Shown here: positions 4,620 through 12,470 of the stretch, piece by piece
How positions within the stretch are numbered: the stretch's first letter is position 1
Layout of the letters: every line of letters begins with the position of its first letter
Source: Cyanobium sp. NS01
GTDB lineage: Bacteria > Cyanobacteriota > Cyanobacteriia > PCC-6307 > Cyanobiaceae
Length of the DNA: 64,000 nt
Direction of reading: 5' to 3'
Assembly (NCBI RefSeq): GCF_014280235.1
Contig: NZ_CP047940.1
Coordinates: forward strand, 1,054,001-1,118,000
Translations under genes and position numbers: made by a program
Notes under the pieces: model-generated
Databases searched by the model: none
Seen by the model: only the letters and a program-made list of their open reading frames with translations
Told to the model about the DNA's origin: nothing

Positions 4620-6164
4620 ATGTCCACCACCACCGTCTCCCTGCTGATCGCCTGGCTGCTGTTCCCCTTCCTGGGGGCCTTCCTGGCGGCGCTGCTGCCC
4701 TCGTTGGCGCGCTGGCTCACCCTGGCCTGCGCCCTCAGCACCACGGCAGTGGGCGTGCTGTTGTTCCCACTCACCTCCCCCTGGGCGCTGGAGCTCACCG
4801 GGCCCCTGGGGGTGTTGCTGCAGGCCGATGCCCAGGCAGCTCCCTTCCTGTTGCTGAATGGGCTGGTGGCGCTGGCGGTGCTGCTCGATACCTGGCGCCG
4901 GCCGCCGCCGGGACCCTTCCTGCTGCTGGTGATGGTGTTGGTGGGAGGCCTCAATTCGGCCTTCCTGGCCGTCGATCTGGTGAGCCTCTACGTGGCGCTC
5001 GAAGTGGTGGGCATCACGGCCTTCCTGCTGATCCTGCAGAAGCGCCAGCCCCAGCAGCTCTGGATCGCCCTGCGCTATCTGCTGGTCAGCAACAGCGTGA
5101 TGACCATGTACCTGGTGGGCGCGGCCCTGCTCTACCTGCAGACCGGCAGCTTCCGCCTCGCGGCCCTCTCCAGTCCGGCGATGGAGCCCCGCAGCCTGGC
5201 GGTGGTGGTGGCCTTTCTGCTGGTGGGTCTGCTGGCCAAGTCCGGGGTGTTCCTCTCTGGACTGTGGCTGCCGCGCACCCATGCCGAGGCGCCCTCGGAG
5301 GTGTCGGCCCTGCTCTCGGGGTCGGTGGTGGCAGGTGGCCTTTGCCCCCTGCTGCGCCTCGAGACCCAGCTGCCCCAGCTGCAGCCGCTGCTGATTCTGA
5401 TCGGCCTGGCCAGTGCCCTGCTGGGGGTGCTCTACGCCCTGGCGGAAACGGATCTCAAGCGCGTGCTGGCCTGGAGCACCCTGGGCCAGGTGGGCCTGGT
5501 GATCCTCAGCCCGGTGAGTGGCGGCATCTATGCCCTCGCCCATGGCCTGGCCAAGGCCTGCCTGTTCCTGGTGGCGGGCCGCGCCGGCAGCCGCGATCTG
5601 GGCCGCTGGCGGCAGCAGCCCCTCGAGGCCGGCCTGGCGCTGCCGCTGCTGCTGGCCTCGCTCTCGATTGCCGGGGCGCCCCTGCTGGTGGGCTACTGGA
5701 CCAAGACCCAGCTCAGCGTGGCGATGGCGTCCCAGCTCTCACCCCTGCTGGAGCGCACCATGCTGGTGGCGATGGTGGGCACGGCGGCGGTCTATGCCCG
5801 GCTCTGCTGGCGGCCGATCCGCTGGCAGGGGCCCCTTCCTTCGCCCGGGGTGGCGGTGCTGGTGGTGTTGGTCGTGGCCCTGGGGTTGCTGCAGGGACCC
5901 CTCCCCTCCGCCGCAGGCGTCATCAAGGCTCTGGGGGTGATTGCGGCAGGTGCGGCCGTGCACGGCGGCCTGAGCCTGATGGCCCAGGCGCTGCGCCGAC
6001 GCCGGCAGGCAGCCCTGGCGCCGGCCCCGGGGCTGGATCCGCCACCCCTGCCCCTGCCGCTGCCTGACATGGAGCGGCTCCAGGAGCTGCTCGGCGGCAT
6101 CGCCGTGGTGGGTGCCGCCCTTGTGGCGGCCCTGATGCCGAGGGAGGCGCTATGGCCAGGCTGA
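4620..6164 (+). CDS. mrpD: Mrp antiporter subunit D, NADH-dehydrogenase-like proton channel
   Basis: 514 aa with about 14 hydrophobic helices; belongs to the NuoL/M/N-MrpA/D proton-translocating family. Visible landmarks are SLYVALEVVGITAFLLIL (the conserved membrane Glu of the family), LLAKSGVFLSGLWLPRTHAEAP with the conserved Lys and the HAEAPSEVSALLSG loop, and LAETDLKRVLAWSTLGQVG. The start ATG at 4620 lies 10 bases after the mrpC stop. The last 13 bases overlap mrpE. It is the only large antiporter-type subunit in the cluster, so it probably carries the main proton path. Confidence 0.9.
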   Translation: MSTTTVSLLIAWLLFPFLGAFLAALLPSLARWLTLACALSTTAVGVLLFPLTSPWALELTGPLGVLLQADAQAAPFLLLNGLVALAVLLDTWRRPPPGPFLLLVMVLVGGLNSAFLAVDLVSLYVALEVVGITAFLLILQKRQPQQLWIALRYLLVSNSVMTMYLVGAALLYLQTGSFRLAALSSPAMEPRSLAVVVAFLLVGLLAKSGVFLSGLWLPRTHAEAPSEVSALLSGSVVAGGLCPLLRLETQLPQLQPLLILIGLASALLGVLYALAETDLKRVLAWSTLGQVGLVILSPVSGGIYALAHGLAKACLFLVAGRAGSRDLGRWRQQPLEAGLALPLLLASLSIAGAPLLVGYWTKTQLSVAMASQLSPLLERTMLVAMVGTAAVYARLCWRPIRWQGPLPSPGVAVLVVLVVALGLLQGPLPSAAGVIKALGVIAAGAAVHGGLSLMAQALRRRRQAALAPAPGLDPPPLPLPLPDMERLQELLGGIAVVGAALVAALMPREALWPG

Positions 6165-6553
6165 TCACCGTGGCCATGAGGCTGCTGATCTGGTGTCTGC
6201 TCAGCGGCGATCTGGGCACCACGAATGTGGCGATCGGCCTGGCCGTGGCCCTGGCCCTGCCCATGGCCCGGCGCAGCCGCCACGTGCCCCTGACCCAGCT
6301 GGTCAGCTCTCTGCTGGCCAGCCTGGTGGCGATCCCGGTGGCCTATGGAGAGGCGTTGAGCCTTCTGGTGCTGGGTTCACGGCTCAAGGGCCGGGTGGAA
6401 CCCTCGCCGGTGCGATCCCGGGGCTCGGCCCTGCTCACCTTCCTGGAGGTGTTTCGCATCACCCTCACACCGCTCACCATCGCCCTGGGGGTGGAGCGCG
6501 ACGGACGCTCCTACCGGGTGCACCGCATGGCACGGCCGGAGGCCAAGCCATGA
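6152..6553 (+). CDS. mrpE: Mrp antiporter subunit E
   Basis: 133 aa, two or three N-terminal helices and a soluble tail, the usual MrpE arrangement. ARLITVAMRLLIWCLLSGD leads into GTTNVAIGLAVALALPMARR; the C-terminal half has the FRITLTPLTIALGVERDGRSY segment, comparable with the ESITLTPGT-like part of the family. It overlaps mrpD by 13 bases and mrpF by 4, which suggests translational coupling. MrpE is needed for full activity or stability of Mrp complexes elsewhere. Confidence 0.8.
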   Translation: MARLITVAMRLLIWCLLSGDLGTTNVAIGLAVALALPMARRSRHVPLTQLVSSLLASLVAIPVAYGEALSLLVLGSRLKGRVEPSPVRSRGSALLTFLEVFRITLTPLTIALGVERDGRSYRVHRMARPEAKP

Positions 6554-6798
6554 GCTTGATCCTGTTGGGAATGGTGCTGGCCCTGCTGCTGCCGATCCTG
6601 GTGGCCTGCCGCTCCACCGATGTCTGGCATCGCCTCGCGGCCTTCGCGAGTGTGTCCACCAAGGTGGCGATCATGATGCTGGCGGTGTCTGTGGTGCGCG
6701 ACGACTGGATGCTGGGCATCGTGGGCGTGATCGTGCTCAGCGTCGGTAATGCCGCCGTGATGCTGCTGGCCAACCTGCTGCGGGGGGTGGACCGATGA
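6550..6798 (+). CDS. mrpF: Mrp antiporter subunit F
   Basis: 82 aa, three hydrophobic helices, the size of MrpF/MnhF. The polar CRSTDVWHRLAAFASVSTK loop and the VRDDWMLGIVGVIVLS helix with its membrane-proximal acidic pair are typical. The ATG at 6550 overlaps the mrpE stop by 4 bases (ATGA), and its own stop overlaps mrpG the same way. The same frame is open further upstream, but there it only reads the shadow of mrpE. Confidence 0.8.
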   Translation: MSLILLGMVLALLLPILVACRSTDVWHRLAAFASVSTKVAIMMLAVSVVRDDWMLGIVGVIVLSVGNAAVMLLANLLRGVDR

Positions 6799-7133
6799 AC
6801 CTCAGCCTGGTGAGCATGGTGCTGCTGCTCAGCGGCCTGGTGTTCTGGTTTTCCGGCACCTGGCCCCTGCTGGGCCGCTCCAGCTTCCTGCGCAAGCTCC
6901 ACTACCTGGGCATCGCAGACACCCTCGGCTCCGCCCTGATGGTGGTGGGCCTGTTGTTGCGCTTCGTGCCGGAATGGCCCCTGCTGCTGCTGGCGCTGCT
7001 GTCGCTGGTGGTGTGGAACACGATCTTCGGCTACGTGTTAGCCAGTTGCTCCCAGCCGCTGCTGCCGCCCCCGGCCGAGGAGGCTGAGCGCCCCGCCGCA
7101 GAGCCCAGGCGCTCGGCAGGGGACCCGTCGTGA
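6795..7133 (+). CDS. mrpG: Mrp antiporter subunit G
   Basis: 112 aa with three helices, the MrpG/MnhG pattern: a first helix ending WFSGTWPLLGRSSF, then LRKLHYLGIADTLGSALMVVG, which corresponds to the conserved RLHA-T-D-G block of the family, and a third helix. A charged, glutamate-rich tail is cytoplasmic or disordered. It overlaps both neighbours by 4 bases. The subunit is structural in the membrane part of Mrp complexes. Confidence 0.8.
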   Translation: MNLSLVSMVLLLSGLVFWFSGTWPLLGRSSFLRKLHYLGIADTLGSALMVVGLLLRFVPEWPLLLLALLSLVVWNTIFGYVLASCSQPLLPPPAEEAERPAAEPRRSAGDPS

Positions 7134-7723
7134 ACGCATTGGACTTCACCCTCACCACGGATGCGGCCCTGCTGCTGCCGATCACGGCGCTGTTGCCGCT
7201 CACGGCGATCCTGCTGGTGGCCCAGTCGAACCCCTATCAGACCCTGGTGATGCGGGGCATTCTCGGGGCGGTGGCGGCCCTGATCTACGCCCTGCTCGGT
7301 GCCGCCGATGTGGCCCTCACCGAGGCCCTGGTGGGCACCCTGCTCTCCACCACCCTCTATGCCGTGGCCCTGCGCTCCTCGATGGTGCTGCGGCTGTCCC
7401 TGCCTGGCGGGGCGATGCCGCCCGAAGCGGTCAGCCAGCGCCTGCGGAGCTGGCTGGAGCCGCTGCACCTGCGCCTGGAGCTGGTGCCCCAGCCCCAGCC
7501 CGGCGAACCCGGCCTGCACGGCCGCCTGATCCGGGCCGAGGCCGAATCCGCCTACGCCCTGCTGCTACATCGCCCCCAGCTGCTCGATCACCTGGCCTCC
7601 CTGCCCGGGGCTGACGGCTGGCGGCAGGAGGGCCACCGGCTCGAGTTGATCCGGGCCGAGGGCCCCGTGCCGGCGCCGGCGTTGGCGGGCGGCTCTGGCG
7701 CGCCTGGTGAGGTGGCGCCATGA
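7130..7723 (+). CDS. Mrp MbhD/DUF4040 subunit, short form of MrpA C-terminus
   Basis: 197 aa from a GTG at 7130 that overlaps the mrpG stop by 4 bases. Residues 10-90 form three helices matching the MbhD (DUF4040) module found near the C-terminus of full MrpA: LLPLTAILLVAQSNPYQTLV, ILGAVAALIYALLGAADVA and LTEALVGTLLSTTLYAVAL, with the AxDVALTEA motif. The remaining hundred residues are soluble, rich in Leu, Pro and Glu, and unassigned. In cyanobacteria the protein called MrpA in this operon position is this short type. There is no full-length NuoL-like MrpA in the window. Confidence 0.75.
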   Translation: MNALDFTLTTDAALLLPITALLPLTAILLVAQSNPYQTLVMRGILGAVAALIYALLGAADVALTEALVGTLLSTTLYAVALRSSMVLRLSLPGGAMPPEAVSQRLRSWLEPLHLRLELVPQPQPGEPGLHGRLIRAEAESAYALLLHRPQLLDHLASLPGADGWRQEGHRLELIRAEGPVPAPALAGGSGAPGEVAP

Positions 7724-8382
7724 ACTGGGTCTATGCCCTGGCGGCCGTGATGCTCTGCCTGGCGCCCCTGGCGCTGGCCATGCCGGAGCCGGCGCCGCTC
7801 GATCAGGTGCTGGAGCTGCTGCTGCGCACCGGGGATGTGCCCAATCTGGTGGCCACCGTGATCCTCGAGACCCGCCTCTACGACACGGTGTCGGAGGTGG
7901 TGGTGTTCACCCTGGCCTCGATCGGTGTGCGCTGGATCTTCAGCGGTGAGCCGAGCCAGCGGCGTATCCGCGGTCTGCAGGACGCCCCCTCGGTGGTGCT
8001 GTGCCAGCTGGGCTCCACCGTCTGCGCCCTGGTGGCGGTGGAGCTGGCCCTGCGCGGCCACCTCTCGCCGGGGGGAGGCTTCGCGGCCGGGGTGTCGGGG
8101 GGAACGGCGATCGGCCTGCTGCTGATCAGCGGCTCGGTGCGGCTGGCCGACCGGCTCTACCAGCGCTATCGGGCCGACCTGTGGGAGAAGGCGGCGGTGG
8201 TGGCCTTCCTGCTGGTGGCGCTGCTCAGCCTGGAGGGGCTGGTTCCCTGGGGCAGCGGCAGCTTCGGCACGATCGACAGCGGCGGCTGGATCCCCCTGCT
8301 CAACGTGCTGGTGGCCGTGAAGGTGACCCTGGGTTCCTGGGCGATGGTGCAGCTGCTGGTGCGCTACCGGGGCCTGCTCTAG
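7720..8382 (+). CDS. mrpB: Mrp antiporter subunit B
   Basis: 220 aa. An N-terminal extension of about 60 residues contains an ETRLYDTVSEVVVFTLASIGV helix of the MbhE kind; the rest is an MnhB domain with LRGHLSPGGGFAAGVSGGTA, the best-known motif of MrpB, and four helices. It combines the MrpA-terminal MbhE-like and MrpB parts. The start overlaps the previous stop by 4 bases. It ends the operon, converging with the reductase gene at 8379 with a 4-base overlap and no room for a separate terminator. Confidence 0.85.
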   Translation: MNWVYALAAVMLCLAPLALAMPEPAPLDQVLELLLRTGDVPNLVATVILETRLYDTVSEVVVFTLASIGVRWIFSGEPSQRRIRGLQDAPSVVLCQLGSTVCALVAVELALRGHLSPGGGFAAGVSGGTAIGLLLISGSVRLADRLYQRYRADLWEKAAVVAFLLVALLSLEGLVPWGSGSFGTIDSGGWIPLLNVLVAVKVTLGSWAMVQLLVRYRGLL

Positions 8383-9044
8383 CTGGCGGCCAGCCAGCTG
8401 CCCAGGGGCTGGGGCGGCTGATCGGGGCTGCTGGTGATCTCCACGATCTGCCCCACCGAAGCGGGCGTGTCGAGGCAGTCGAGGCAGACGCGGGCCACCA
8501 GCCGCCTGGGGATGCTGTTGCTCTCCTGCTGGTCGGGGCCGCTGAACACCACGCCCTCGGCCTCGAGGCCCTCGTCCCGCTCGCTGAGCCCGCCGGGCCG
8601 CACGATGGTCCAGGCCAGGCCGCTCTGCTCGAGCCAGCGCTCCCCCAGCCGCTTCCACATCAGGATCAGGCCGAACAGGTTCAGCGGGTGCAGCAGGCGG
8701 CCGGCGCAGAGCGAGCTCACCAGCACCACCCGGTTCACGCCCACGGCGGTGCAGGCGCTGATCTGCTCACGCACCCCGAAGGCATCCACCTTGAGCGGGC
8801 CGGCCAGGTCCACCGAGGGCCGGGCGCCGGTGGCGATCACCAGGGCCTCGCAGCCGCGCAGCGCGGTCTGCAGCGCCGTGCTGTCCGACAACTCCAGCCG
8901 CACCACCTCGGCCCCCTCCAGTCCGGCGGGCAGCTGGGAGGCTGGCCGCACCAGGGCCTTCACCTGATGGCCGCGCTGCAGGGCCTCCTGAACGACCCGC
9001 CAGCCTGTCTTGCCCGAGGCTCCGCTCACTGCGATTGTTGCCAT
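8379..9044 (-). CDS. NmrA-like atypical SDR NAD(P)-binding protein
   Basis: 221 aa. The N-terminal IAVSGASGKTGWRVVQEAL carries the GxxGxxG-type dinucleotide-binding loop; ALVRPASQL, a CEALVIATGARPS strand and RVVLVSSLCAG follow, and the TIVRPGGLSE segment near residue 145 marks atypical SDRs of the Ycf39/Tic62/NAD-dependent epimerase-like class. The classical YxxxK catalytic pair is not evident, which suits an atypical member. Family members in cyanobacteria include assembly factors and reductases; I cannot tell which this is. Confidence 0.75.
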   Translation of the reverse strand: MATIAVSGASGKTGWRVVQEALQRGHQVKALVRPASQLPAGLEGAEVVRLELSDSTALQTALRGCEALVIATGARPSVDLAGPLKVDAFGVREQISACTAVGVNRVVLVSSLCAGRLLHPLNLFGLILMWKRLGERWLEQSGLAWTIVRPGGLSERDEGLEAEGVVFSGPDQQESNSIPRRLVARVCLDCLDTPASVGQIVEITSSPDQPPQPLGSWLAAS

Positions 9045-9225: not shown

Positions 9226-10647
9226 ATGGGCTGGAACAACCAGTGGTATGCCGTGGCCTATCTGGACGATCTCGATCGCACCAGGCCCACGCCCTTCACC
9301 CTGCTGGAGCAGGACCTGGTGCTCTGGTGGGACGCCGGAGCCGAGCAATGGCGCGCCTTCGCCGATGTCTGCCCGCACCGCCTGGTTCCCCTCAGTGAGG
9401 GGCGGCTCAACGGCCGTGGAGAGCTGGAGTGCCCCTACCACGGCTGGAGTTTCGATGGCAGCGGTCACTGCACCACCATCCCCCAGGCCGACGCCGCCCA
9501 GGCGGGCACCGCCTGCGCCAGTGCCCGCTCGAGCTGCGGCGTGTTTGCCACGGCCACCGGCCAGGGGCTGCTGTTCGTGTTCGCGGGGGAGGCGGAGCTG
9601 GCGGAGCATCGGCGCCTGCCCCTGGTGCCCACCCTGGAAGAGCCCGGCTGGCTGGTGCAGGACACCTTCCGGGACCTTCCCATGGACGCCCTCACCCTGC
9701 TCGAGAATGTGCTCGATGTGAGCCATGTGCCCTTCACCCACCACCTCACCGTGGGGCGGCGCGAGAACGCGGCGCCGGTGGAGGCCCTGATCACCAGCGA
9801 GGGGGCCGAGGGCTTCACGGCCACATGGGAGGAGGGGCCCCGGCGGGGCAAGCTCGGCAGCCAGTTCACCACTTTCGCGGCGCCGGGCCTGATGTGGCAC
9901 GACCTCACCGCCAAGGGTTTTGCCCGCATCCTCACCGTGGTGTACGCCACGCCGATCCGCCCTGGGGAATGCCGCCTGTTCGCCCGCTTCCCGTTCCAGT
10001 TCGAATCGGCGTTGCCGAAGCTGCTGCTGCCCCTGCGGCCTCGCTGGCTGCAGCACCTGGCCAACCACATCGTGCTGGAGGACGACCAGGTGTTCCTGCA
10101 CGGCCAGGAGCGGCGGCTGCAGCAGCGCGGTGGCCGCTCAGCCTTCGCCCAGGCCTGCTTCCTGCCCACCAGCTCGGATGTGTACGTCCGGGCCCTGCAC
10201 GCCTGGGTGGAGAACCATGGCGGTGAGCCCTTCCCCGGCAGATCCCTGCCCCCCCGGCTCGGTGGCGACGCCCTGATGGAGCGACAGCAGGCCCACACGA
10301 GCCATTGCCGGGCCTGCTCCGGTGCCCAGCGTGGCCTGCGCCGGCTGCGGCCCTGGCTGCAGCTGTTCACCGGCCTGGCCCTGGTGTCCACGGCCGCCCT
10401 GGCTGGTGCGGCCCTGGCTGGCGGCGTCGGCCTGGGGGCTGGCTGGCTCCCCTGCATGGGTGCGGGGCTGCTGAGCCTGGCAGGCTGGTTGGGGCTGGCT
10501 CAGCTGGAGGGCTGGCTGGAGGGCCTCAGCCGAGGGGCAGGCCTGCCCCCCCGCAATGCTCCAGAGCCTGGCCGTCCTGGGGCTCCTGCCGCATCGGCTG
10601 CCCCTTCCGATCGGCGATCCGCGCGCGCGCCAGATCCAGTGAGGTGA
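9226..10647 (+). CDS. Rieske oxygenase, pheophorbide a oxygenase (PaO/Tic55) family
   Basis: 473 aa. A Rieske [2Fe-2S] site is complete (CPHRLVPLSEG near residue 48 and CPYHGWSFDG near 70). The mononuclear iron motif is ENVLDVSHVPFTHH near residue 160. The C-terminal HCRACSGAQRG is the CxxC-type signature of the PaO/chlorophyllide oxygenase/Tic55 group. Two hydrophobic helices between residues 375 and 430 should anchor it to a membrane. The family acts on chlorophyll-derived or related ring substrates with ferredoxin as donor; the substrate here is unknown. The last 40 residues are low-complexity and run antisense to a Nif11 gene, so the functional protein may end near the helices. Confidence 0.85.
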   Translation: MGWNNQWYAVAYLDDLDRTRPTPFTLLEQDLVLWWDAGAEQWRAFADVCPHRLVPLSEGRLNGRGELECPYHGWSFDGSGHCTTIPQADAAQAGTACASARSSCGVFATATGQGLLFVFAGEAELAEHRRLPLVPTLEEPGWLVQDTFRDLPMDALTLLENVLDVSHVPFTHHLTVGRRENAAPVEALITSEGAEGFTATWEEGPRRGKLGSQFTTFAAPGLMWHDLTAKGFARILTVVYATPIRPGECRLFARFPFQFESALPKLLLPLRPRWLQHLANHIVLEDDQVFLHGQERRLQQRGGRSAFAQACFLPTSSDVYVRALHAWVENHGGEPFPGRSLPPRLGGDALMERQQAHTSHCRACSGAQRGLRRLRPWLQLFTGLALVSTAALAGAALAGGVGLGAGWLPCMGAGLLSLAGWLGLAQLEGWLEGLSRGAGLPPRNAPEPGRPGAPAASAAPSDRRSARAPDPVR

Positions 10648-10774
10648 TGCGGTAGCCGAGGGTGCGGGCGGCGAGCACCAGCTCAGGCTCACTGCGGCAG
10701 TGGCTCAGGGCCCGGCGCAGAGCGTTGTCGGCCTCGGCACTCTCCACCAACCGTTCCAGTTCACTCCAGCTCAT
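10526..10774 (-). CDS. Nif11-domain small protein (leader-peptide-like)
   Basis: 82 aa. Residues 1-52 fit the Nif11/nitrile-hydratase-leader family: SWSELERLVESAEADNALRRAL, a central CRSEPELVLAARTLGYRIT with the conserved A-xx-GY-IT element, and a following charged helix. Such domains serve as leaders of RiPP precursors (for example prochlorosins) or occur alone. Here only about 30 residues follow; they include one Cys and a Gly-Gly near the end (EHCGGAGLPLG), leaving almost no core peptide, and no lanthionine synthetase is nearby. A stand-alone Nif11 protein or a degenerate precursor is more likely. It overlaps the 3' end of the Rieske gene on the opposite strand by 122 bases. Confidence 0.6.
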   Translation of the reverse strand: MSWSELERLVESAEADNALRRALSHCRSEPELVLAARTLGYRITSLDLARARIADRKGQPMRQEPQDGQALEHCGGAGLPLG

Positions 10775-10965
10775 CGCCGATCGCGCCTCTGGGGGCCTGC
10801 TCAGTGGACATCACCACCTTGCCCGTGGTCGCGGCGAACAGCAAGGTTCCGCCCGTTACCGTCCGCCCGGGGGCTCCGACCGATCAGACGTGCTGATTGC
10901 CAGGCCGCCGGGGTTGGCAAGGGCTGAGGTGTCGCTATGCAGAGGAGGAAGGGCGAAGGATTTGC

Positions 10966-11304
10966 ATGGATCGCTTGCCGCCCGACTCCGGGGACAATCA
11001 GCCGATCACGCCCCATGCGGCGCCGATCCTCGATGTGGAGGGGCAGCTCACCTACATCGGCGCTGACGGACGCCGCTACGTGGTGGGTCTGCCGCCGGAG
11101 ACCGATAAGGAGAGCGTGGAGCGGGTGATGGCCACCCTGCGGCGCGGTGCCGGCGTGTTCCAGCAGATCGAAGACCTGTGCCATCGCTGGATCCGGGAGG
11201 TGAGCGGCGCCGAGCTGGAGTCGCGGGCGGCCCTGGTGCTGCTGCTCACCACCCTGGAAACGGCCCTGGAGGAGGACTACCCCGAGAGCAGCTCCGACCC
11301 CTGA
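10966..11304 (+). CDS. Hypothetical protein, 112 aa
   Basis: Not recognised. The start ATG at 10966 has a purine-rich GGAGGAAGG stretch about 20 bases upstream, a little far. The protein is soluble and acidic, with no signal or membrane segment. A beta-like [19 protein letters not shown] segment near residue 25 precedes two amphipathic helices, the second leucine-rich and ending in an acidic tail ([11 protein letters not shown]). The normal amino-acid composition argues that it is a true gene, not a shadow. It converges on aroB with a 28-base overlap of coding ends. Confidence 0.65.
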
Positions 11305-12470
11305 GCGCAGGCCCGCAGGGCCTCGAGGATGGTGGCGCGTTCCACGTCGTCGCGGATCTCCACGCTGCCGATCGCCGTGGGCAGCACGAAGCGCAGCCGG
11401 CCCTCGCGCACCTTCTTGTCGCCCTGCAGGCAGCGCAGCACGGCCTCGGGGTCCAGCTGCGGCCACTGCCGGGGCAGGCCGGCGGCGTCGATCAGGGCCA
11501 GCTGGCGGGCCTGGTCGGCTCGGCTCCAGAGCCCCATCGCCACGGCGATCTCGCCGGCCGCCGCCATGCCGATCGCCACGGCCTCGCCATGCAGCCAGGT
11601 GCCATAGCCACAGAGGGTCTCCACCACGTGGCCGAGGGTGTGGCCGTAGTTGAGGATCGCCCGCAGGCCGCCCTCCCGTTCGTCGGCCGCCACCACCCGG
11701 GCCTTGGCGGCGGCGGAGCGCTCCAGCAAGGTGTGCAGCAGTTCGGCGCCCACCGCCTCGCGGCTGGCCAGGGCAGTGCCGGGCTGCTGCCGCGCTGCCG
11801 TTTCGAGGGCGTCGAACAGCCCGGGATCGCCGATCACGCCGTACTTGATCACCTCGGCCATGCCGGCCCGGAACTCCCGCTCCGGCAGGGTGCTGAGCAC
11901 CAGCGGATCGATCAGCACCAGACGCGGCTGGTGGAAGGCGCCGATCAGGTTCTTGCCGCCTGGGTGGTTGACGCCGGTCTTGCCGCCGATCGCCGCATCC
12001 ACCATCGCCAGCAGGGTGGTGGGCACCTGCACCACGGCGATGCCCCGCAGCCAGGTGGCGGCGGCGAAGCCGGCCATGTCACCCACCACGCCACCGCCGA
12101 GGGCCACGATCAACGAGCCGCGCTCCAGCCGCTGCTTGAAGGCAGCGTCGTGGATCAGGCCCACGGTGGCGGGGGTTTTCTGGTCTTCCCCGGCTTCGAT
12201 CACCAGCCGCTCGGCGGCCAGGCCGGCCCGCTCCAGGCTGGCCAGCACCGTGGCGCCGTAGGGGCGGTCCACATCGGGGTTGGTCACCACCAGCGCCTTG
12301 GTGCCGGCCTTCGGGCCCAGCTGCCGCAGCCGCTCGCCCAGCTGGGCCAGGCAGCCTTCGCCGATCACCACCGGGTAGGGGTTGGTGCTGAGCTCCACGG
12401 CGATGGTGCGGATCGCGGCGGGGGTGGCGGCCATGGGCGAGGGCGGGGGTGGAGCGAGGCTAGGGCTCAT
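11277..12470 (-). CDS. aroB: 3-dehydroquinate synthase
   Basis: 397 aa. Converts DAHP to 3-dehydroquinate, the second step of the shikimate pathway, with NAD and a divalent metal. Recognisable blocks are [13 protein letters not shown], the EAGEDQKT loop, the glycine-rich [48 protein letters not shown], the [12 protein letters not shown] metal-site region and the [11 protein letters not shown] histidines. The start at 12470 is chosen because its ATG overlaps the preceding gene's stop (ATGA), which implies coupling; an internal ATG at 12434 would give the shorter usual N-terminus. Confidence 0.95.

Follow-up and report, generated by a model that had tools for sequence, protein, structure and literature searches.

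The nif11 locus

The window analysed here is a 64,000-nucleotide stretch (C1:1054001–1118000) of the single-contig, 2.75-Mb genome of Cyanobium sp. NS01 (G000). Within it, at positions 10526–10774 of the minus strand, lies a gene that we annotate as nif11, encoding a stand-alone Nif11 protein. The ORF starts with an ATG at 10774, ends with a TGA at 10528–10526 and comprises 82 codons plus the stop; it was recognized from the ORF list, a Pfam match and tblastn. The gene sits between a convergent Rieske/PaO-family oxygenase gene on the plus strand (9226–10647; PF08417 and PF00355) and aroB. Its 3′ end overlaps that of the PaO gene, which ends at 10647, by 122 bp (10526–10647), as an earlier sequence-only reading of this DNA had described, and the overlap is of equal length in the congeners G072 and G099. 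On the other side of nif11 are a conserved upstream block at 10815–10850 on the minus strand, a small plus-strand gene of 112 aa (10966–11304) that matches no family over cut-off, and, adjoining the latter, aroB on the minus strand at about 11277–12428.

Because 70 ORFs of at least 50 aa, a length reached by chance, occur across about 10 kb of this GC-rich window, an ORF alone is no evidence for a gene and conservation must decide. By Pfam, the Nif11 assignment is a marginal pass: PF07862 matches residues 1–47 and, at 24.1 bits (24.4 in the genome search), barely clears its cut-off of 23.8. The protein scores 26.5 bits with the NCBIfam RiPP-precursor model TIGR03798 (N11P), below the threshold of 32.3, and 18.3 bits with the Nif11/cupin model TIGR03890, for which the cut-off is 159.45; Nif11 is its sole Pfam match, and it has no cupin domain. 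The domain had been called well preserved from the letters; judged by Pfam alone, it is marginal.

A conserved domain under purifying selection

Relatives of the nif11 product are found across the taxonomic family. At E≤1e-9, tblastn gave matches in 33 of the 151 sampled family genomes, the window's own included (a hand count from best-E values, with some of the 33 genomes incomplete), and at E≤1e-3 in 46 of the 151, again with its own. A scan of the genome contigs yielded 52 nif11 loci, mostly from Cyanobium, Synechococcus, Vulcanococcus and other cyanobacteria. Across the phylum, the profile of the protein family matched at E≤1e-8 in three of 244 genomes, all three from the window's own taxonomic family.

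Five congeners were sampled with tblastn. G072 and G099 match over residues 1–80 at 68% and 66%, respectively, G121 has a weak match alone (39%, E 2.6e-4), and no nif11 match was found in G030 or G140. By this search, the window genome has one copy of the family, in a place syntenic with those of G072 and G099. The gene is dispensable, since it is missing from three of the five sampled congeners and some copies elsewhere have decayed. Where it is kept, its coding sequence is constrained: pooled pN/pS over codons 1–57 is 0.16 for 23 hand-picked, partly overlapping pairs, and within the genus trio (window, G072 and G099) it is 0.14–0.26 over codons 1–41. With relatives across the family genomes and a domain under purifying selection, the window ORF is, on comparative grounds, a real gene. 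The sequence-only reading had let its proposal stand or fall with conservation of the frame in close relatives, and the frame is kept in two of the five congeners and widely beyond them.

Residue counts were taken over 70 non-redundant relatives, which left out L006 (the same gene as L009), the broken copies L087–L090 and duplicates; the alignment used for structure prediction and tail statistics (A1, 67 rows) is also without L075, L082 and L013 (unknown residue). All but one of the 70 are 59–83 aa long, the exception having 123 aa. Their common sequence, MSWSELERLVxxAE...RRALRHCRSxxELxLAARRLGYRITRxDLQRAW, falls within codons 1–57 of the window gene (10604–10774, minus strand), and there is little common sequence beyond about residue 57. 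M1, E5, L6, E7, R8, V10, E14 and D47 are invariant, and C26 is present in 69 of the 70.

From the 67-row alignment, AlphaFold2 predicts four helices (residues 3–15, 17–24, 29–39 and 45–57), and C26 falls between predicted helices 2 and 3. Ten-residue means of pLDDT are 74–90 over residues 1–60 and about 50 in the tail, with an overall mean of 75.1 and a pTM of 0.55. In a VIA-align comparison, the top row was the Nif11 leader of MppE, an NMR structure (PDB 9zn4), at a low Z of 3.7 (rmsd 3.6 over 57 residues) that ties with the rows for ArgR DNA-binding domains (Z 3.0 and 2.8). A Foldseek comparison was also weak (E 1.7), and 2cpx, the sole match in a PDB sequence search (E 1.2), was taken as chance.

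Probable origin of the Cys-Gly-Gly ending and the 122-bp overlap

Codons 58–82 (10529–10603, minus strand) form a non-conserved tail, the last 11 residues of which, E72 to G82, read EHCGGAGLPLG and are antisense to the PaO codons for GLPPRN. The corresponding endings in G072 and G099 are EHCEAAHPPHG and GHCEAAHPPHG; Gly-Gly is missing from both, and the terminal Cys occupies an identical codon position in each of the three genes. The opposite strand explains both features: Gly75-Gly76 is there because it is the reverse of the CCCCCC of the PaO Pro-Pro pair, and Cys74 is common to the trio because it is antisense to Arg-Asn codons retained by PaO.

In the window and in these two congeners both genes read through, producing an overlap of identical length. 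The window PaO continues for 29 residues past PPRN (codons at 10558–10644, plus strand), and its nif11 has 82 codons, versus 65–66 in five distant convergent relatives (L012, L040, L041, L049 and L053). In those five loci, PaO ends 2–7 residues past PPRN and the two genes abut, with anything from a 14-base gap to a 4-base overlap. The PaO proteins of congeners G121 and G140, which have no nif11 at the site, end in PPRNRS and PPRNALRA. With the tails of L051 and L056 (read past a stop), L043 (runs off its contig) and G030 (L101) left out, the cleanly read relatives end 2–9 residues past PPRN, and the low-complexity oxygenase tail that had been remarked on over the overlap is indeed a real stretch of 29 residues where relatives soon end.

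The distribution of the two states across congeners and distant convergent relatives suggests that the long overlapping state is derived, and the overlap is best explained by the loss of earlier stops in both genes. Two lost stop codons would be the simplest account of the Cys-Gly-Gly end, the Pro/Ala-rich low-complexity tail of PaO and the deep antisense overlap together. When the window gene is compared with G072 and G099, pN/pS over tail codons 58–82 is 2.34 and 1.63, and the PaO frame across the overlap gives 0.43 and 0.42 for the same pairs. The comparison of G072 with G099 is opposite to the other two, at 0.54 for the tail and 1.14 for the PaO frame; with pN/pS counts this small and the third pair reversed, some constraint on the tail in these two congeners is conceivable.

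Tail, core and modifying enzymes

The Nif11 leaders of RiPP precursors are described as consisting of a structured nucleus and, behind it, a disordered stretch that is rich in Asp/Glu and contains L(X)4L (PMC12715784); Haft's table gives their motif as ELSDEELEAVAGG (PMC2887384). Neither a core nor a Gly-Gly or L(X)4L linker is common to the 67 aligned relatives. Gly-Gly occurs after position 50 in nine of them, and past position 52, where the mean remaining length is 17 residues, L(X)4L is found in three, Cys in 15 and Cys together with Ser/Thr in six; the mean acidic fraction of the tail is 0.13 and the basic fraction 0.18. The window protein has a run of six residues after its Gly-Gly. That it ends in a Gly-Gly and a Cys with no real core had been read from the letters alone and is borne out.

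The sequence-only reading had offered two explanations of this ending, an orphan leader served by a modifying enzyme elsewhere and a non-RiPP Nif11 protein, and had proposed a genome-wide search for LanM and for other Nif11 genes. Four enzyme classes were covered, and the single contig of the genome holds no match to LanM/DUF4135 (PF13575), LANC-like (PF05147), YcaO (PF02624) or SPASM (PF13186), the LanC, YcaO and SPASM negatives being at E≤0.01. In a control over 14 known genomes, LanM was found in none, LANC-like in two, YcaO in five and SPASM in eight; the LanM model works despite that zero, since it matched in nine of the 151 family genomes. Among the 33 genomes in which nif11 matched strongly, only G072 carries LanM, and with none in the window genome a lanthipeptide partner was rejected. 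These counts speak against the orphan leader. The window genome also contains one frame, of 718 aa, that passes the peptidase-C39 cut-off.

The second explanation, a non-RiPP protein, fits the tails of the 67 relatives, which share neither a core nor Gly-Gly nor L(X)4L, and is also favoured by the nature of the best-scoring outside relatives. Among 26 other Nif11 loci scored against the family profile, the five top scorers are L144/L145 (32.0 bits), L003 (27.1 bits), L139 and L140, none of which is of the Gly-Gly-and-core type; the best representative of the Gly-Gly type, L153, reaches 19.0 bits, a score that the core-less L142 (5.1 bits), L001/L002 (12.4), L137 (15.8) and L146 (18.6) do not exceed. 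Three of the other Nif11 genes, L001, L002 and L003, are in the window genome itself. L003 is the only one of the 26 with a Cys in the C26 column and differs from the window family in its frame of 186 aa, which runs far past its Nif11 domain; we take it, from the TIGR03890 name and our own reading, to be a Nif11-cupin protein.

Two groups of these loci have tails of their own. L139, L140, L142 and L144–L146 belong to a cyanobacterial class of short Nif11 proteins with a fixed RRxTGVWxWLR tail (RRHTGVWEWLRTVPW in L144/L145) and no hypervariable core. This class resembles the window family in being short and core-less and includes its best outside scorers, but it differs in its conserved C-terminal motif and in having no Cys at the place of C26, and its member L142 has the low score given above. 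L001 and L002 (C1:1938341 and 1949165) are near-alike proteins with a common DEAFTAPWWPW-x-GGGR tail, and they adjoin a short tandem repeat whose opposite strand reads GRWSLVA.

A conserved block upstream of nif11

Most of 18 aligned upstream regions have GGAACCTTG and, after a spacer of 20 bases, CATGGTG, each exact or as a close variant, the block beginning 55–77 bases before the ATG; L012 and L050 are without its GGAAC part. The window form, GGAACCTTG-N20-CAAGGTG at 10850–10815 on the minus strand, is the sole exact match to the pattern in its genome. The GGAAC-type motif is present in 12 of 34 dereplicated upstream regions versus 0.7% of shuffles, a comparison in which the motif was picked from the same sequences it was tested on and relatedness was partly removed; the other 22 regions have different sequences without it.

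Exact matches to the block number one each in G000 and G072 (both at nif11), two in G099 (nif11 and one other place) and four in G134, where they mark two intact and two decayed nif11 copies; G143 has nif11 and no exact match. With up to two mismatches allowed, there are 26–42 matches per genome versus 5–13 for the reversed control (six genomes, among the matches listed). A regulon behind the block was considered and set aside. A sigma-70 consensus scan of the block found none, so that we infer a promoter from position and conservation; on that footing, nif11 probably has its own.

Copy number, decay and linkage to PaO

As many as five family matches occur in one genome (G148), at varied places, and neighbours vary between lineages. 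Some copies lie beside a gene for a CoA-ligase-like/GNAT protein. At L061:5001–5180, nif11 overlaps tail to tail with such a frame on the opposite strand (5131–8424), and a 3′ overlap of nif11 thus recurs with another, unrelated partner gene.

Several copies are damaged. L087–L090, from two assemblies, are all broken just after codon 27 (HCR). An insertion element at this recurrent break was considered and rejected. Compared with an L082-like gene, L089 and L090 seem to have undergone internal deletions that end at different points. Directly after the break in L090 comes a short stretch corresponding to the end of the missing part; in L087–L089, looking for the missing part as a detached fragment gave nothing convincing. 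In G134, the decayed copies L113 and L119 keep the upstream block: L113 seems to have lost sequence between two GAGCTG repeats, and L119 has lost its start codon and frame and has a downstream flank in common with L125. Carriage by phages or plasmids was also rejected: searches of phage and plasmid records gave nothing at E≤0.01, and of 79 pattern matches in viral contigs none was confirmed.

PaO lies within 10 kb of nif11 in nine of the 29 genomes with both genes (G000, G072, G099, G143, G090, G005, G148, G113 and G132; a hand count spanning three genera); in the other 20, the two are farther apart on one contig (ten genomes) or on different contigs (ten). The arrangement is convergent in eight loci (L009–L012, L040, L041, L049 and L053); in 13, PaO follows downstream on the nif11 strand, and at L043:1–1561 the genes are divergent, standing back to back about 230 bases apart. 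In a tree of codons 1–57, built from short genes and with several weak nodes (L043, labelled convergent there, is actually divergent), the PaO-linked lineages are mostly in one part. This clustering suggests that the linkage may be ancestral, with later rearrangement, and alone shows no joint function; PaO as a functional partner of nif11 is a lead.

Discussion

We consider it probable that the window gene encodes a stand-alone, non-RiPP Nif11 protein acting as a protein-binding adaptor or regulator, its tail being a functionless product of stop loss. The gene would be transcribed alone from the upstream block, and the protein would fold as a small helical bundle that binds a protein partner, regulating or positioning it as Nif11 leaders bind enzymes. 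Its docking surface would be of the kind that those leaders use on enzymes, with nothing appended for modification, and the working site would include Cys26, which lies in the loop joining predicted helices 2 and 3. The 3′ end would probably have no function of its own, both genes having lost their earlier stops and now running 122 bp into each other. A partner in pigment or photosynthesis regulation is our best guess, a weakly supported one taken from the PaO neighbour and from Unk10, a protein discussed below.

A bolder version of the adaptor is possible, and we hold it only tentatively. The window's own Nif11 lineage, with no peptide to modify, may keep a pre-RiPP adaptor job of docking a house-keeping enzyme or regulator, possibly with thiol sensing through Cys26, and the two 3′ ends may be mutually overprinted. 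If overprinting were true, two unrelated genes would each have gained C-terminal residues from the other's antisense.

The remaining explanations give the protein no such role. It is unlikely that promoter and short ORF make up a small duplicating unit, such as an antitoxin-like or selfish element that benefits only its own maintenance. Such a unit would fit the multiple matches at varied places in G148, the two intact and two decayed copies behind the exact blocks of G134, the flank common to L119 and L125 and the neighbours that differ among lineages; the phage, plasmid and viral searches argue against it, as does the single copy in the window genome, syntenic with those of G072 and G099, and no toxin gene paired with it was noticed in passing. 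More improbable is a decaying remnant of a RiPP precursor family that has lost core and synthetase: broken or frameshifted copies in several genomes (L087–L090, L113 and L119) and patchy presence within the genus are what decay would leave, but in the window gene and its orthologues the domain is under purifying selection, and all members of the genus trio retain the upstream block.

An orphan RiPP precursor, whose short tail would be the substrate of an enzyme encoded elsewhere and would leave the cell through the sole C39 transporter, seems to us very improbable. The Nif11 domain does stand just above its Pfam cut-off, the window protein has a Cys and a Gly-Gly near its end (the Cys in both congeners too), the one C39 peptidase frame makes export of a Gly-Gly peptide formally possible, and Nif11 precursors have been noted in species without identified enzymes (Haft 2010, PMC2887384). 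Against this, the genome has no LanM, LanC, YcaO or SPASM match, the protein misses the TIGR03798 cut-off, its Gly-Gly is absent from the congeners and, like L(X)4L, is no common feature of the family, and the tail is unconstrained in comparisons with the window gene. Hardly credible at all is a purely antisense role, in which the minus-strand RNA over the 3′ end of PaO matters and the protein does not, for although the 122-bp overlap is kept in three congeners, it is nil or at most 4 bp in L012, L040, L041, L049 and L053, and the protein is conserved also at loci where no PaO match was found.

The stand-alone adaptor that we favour can be set beside known Nif11 proteins. With the Nif11 leaders of RiPP precursors (N11P, TIGR03798; prochlorosins; the MppE leader 9zn4) it has the Nif11 domain in common; unlike them, the window family is without a common Asp/Glu-rich L(X)4L region, Gly-Gly end or core, and the window genome and protein differ further in the enzyme and TIGR03798 results above. 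Another likeness is Unk10, a Nif11-domain protein of 107–118 aa from the chromatic-acclimation (CA4) island of marine Synechococcus (PMC3877281), which is small, has its Nif11 domain at the N-terminus and belongs to an island whose description, in the part of that account used here, is without RiPP enzymes. Unk10 is longer than the window protein and resides in pigment islands, and the two are likened by description, not sequence; it is still called unknown in function in PMC10904595. Other reports concern Nif11 genes more generally: a Nif11-domain-like transcript was higher with added iron in Synechococcus (PMC9723758), and Prochlorococcus MIT9313, which makes prochlorosins (PMC10783134), has nitrogen-responsive nif11-domain genes beside transposases (PMC2784084). 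No title or abstract opening among the literature matches listed names the present family, which does not amount to its absence from print.

The NCBIfam Nif11 model is titled as a RiPP-precursor family, and Nif11 genes are easily taken for natural-product precursors. Selection on the domain, the tail statistics and the missing four enzyme classes together show a lineage conserved without a core, for which the RiPP-precursor name would mislead. The window gene is a modest variant of the Nif11 kind and no hidden natural-product gene, and its ending shows that a Gly-Gly-Cys terminus can arise when a lost stop extends a gene across a Pro-Pro codon pair on the other strand. The family represents a minimal 57-residue module from which to learn the role of Nif11 outside RiPPs.
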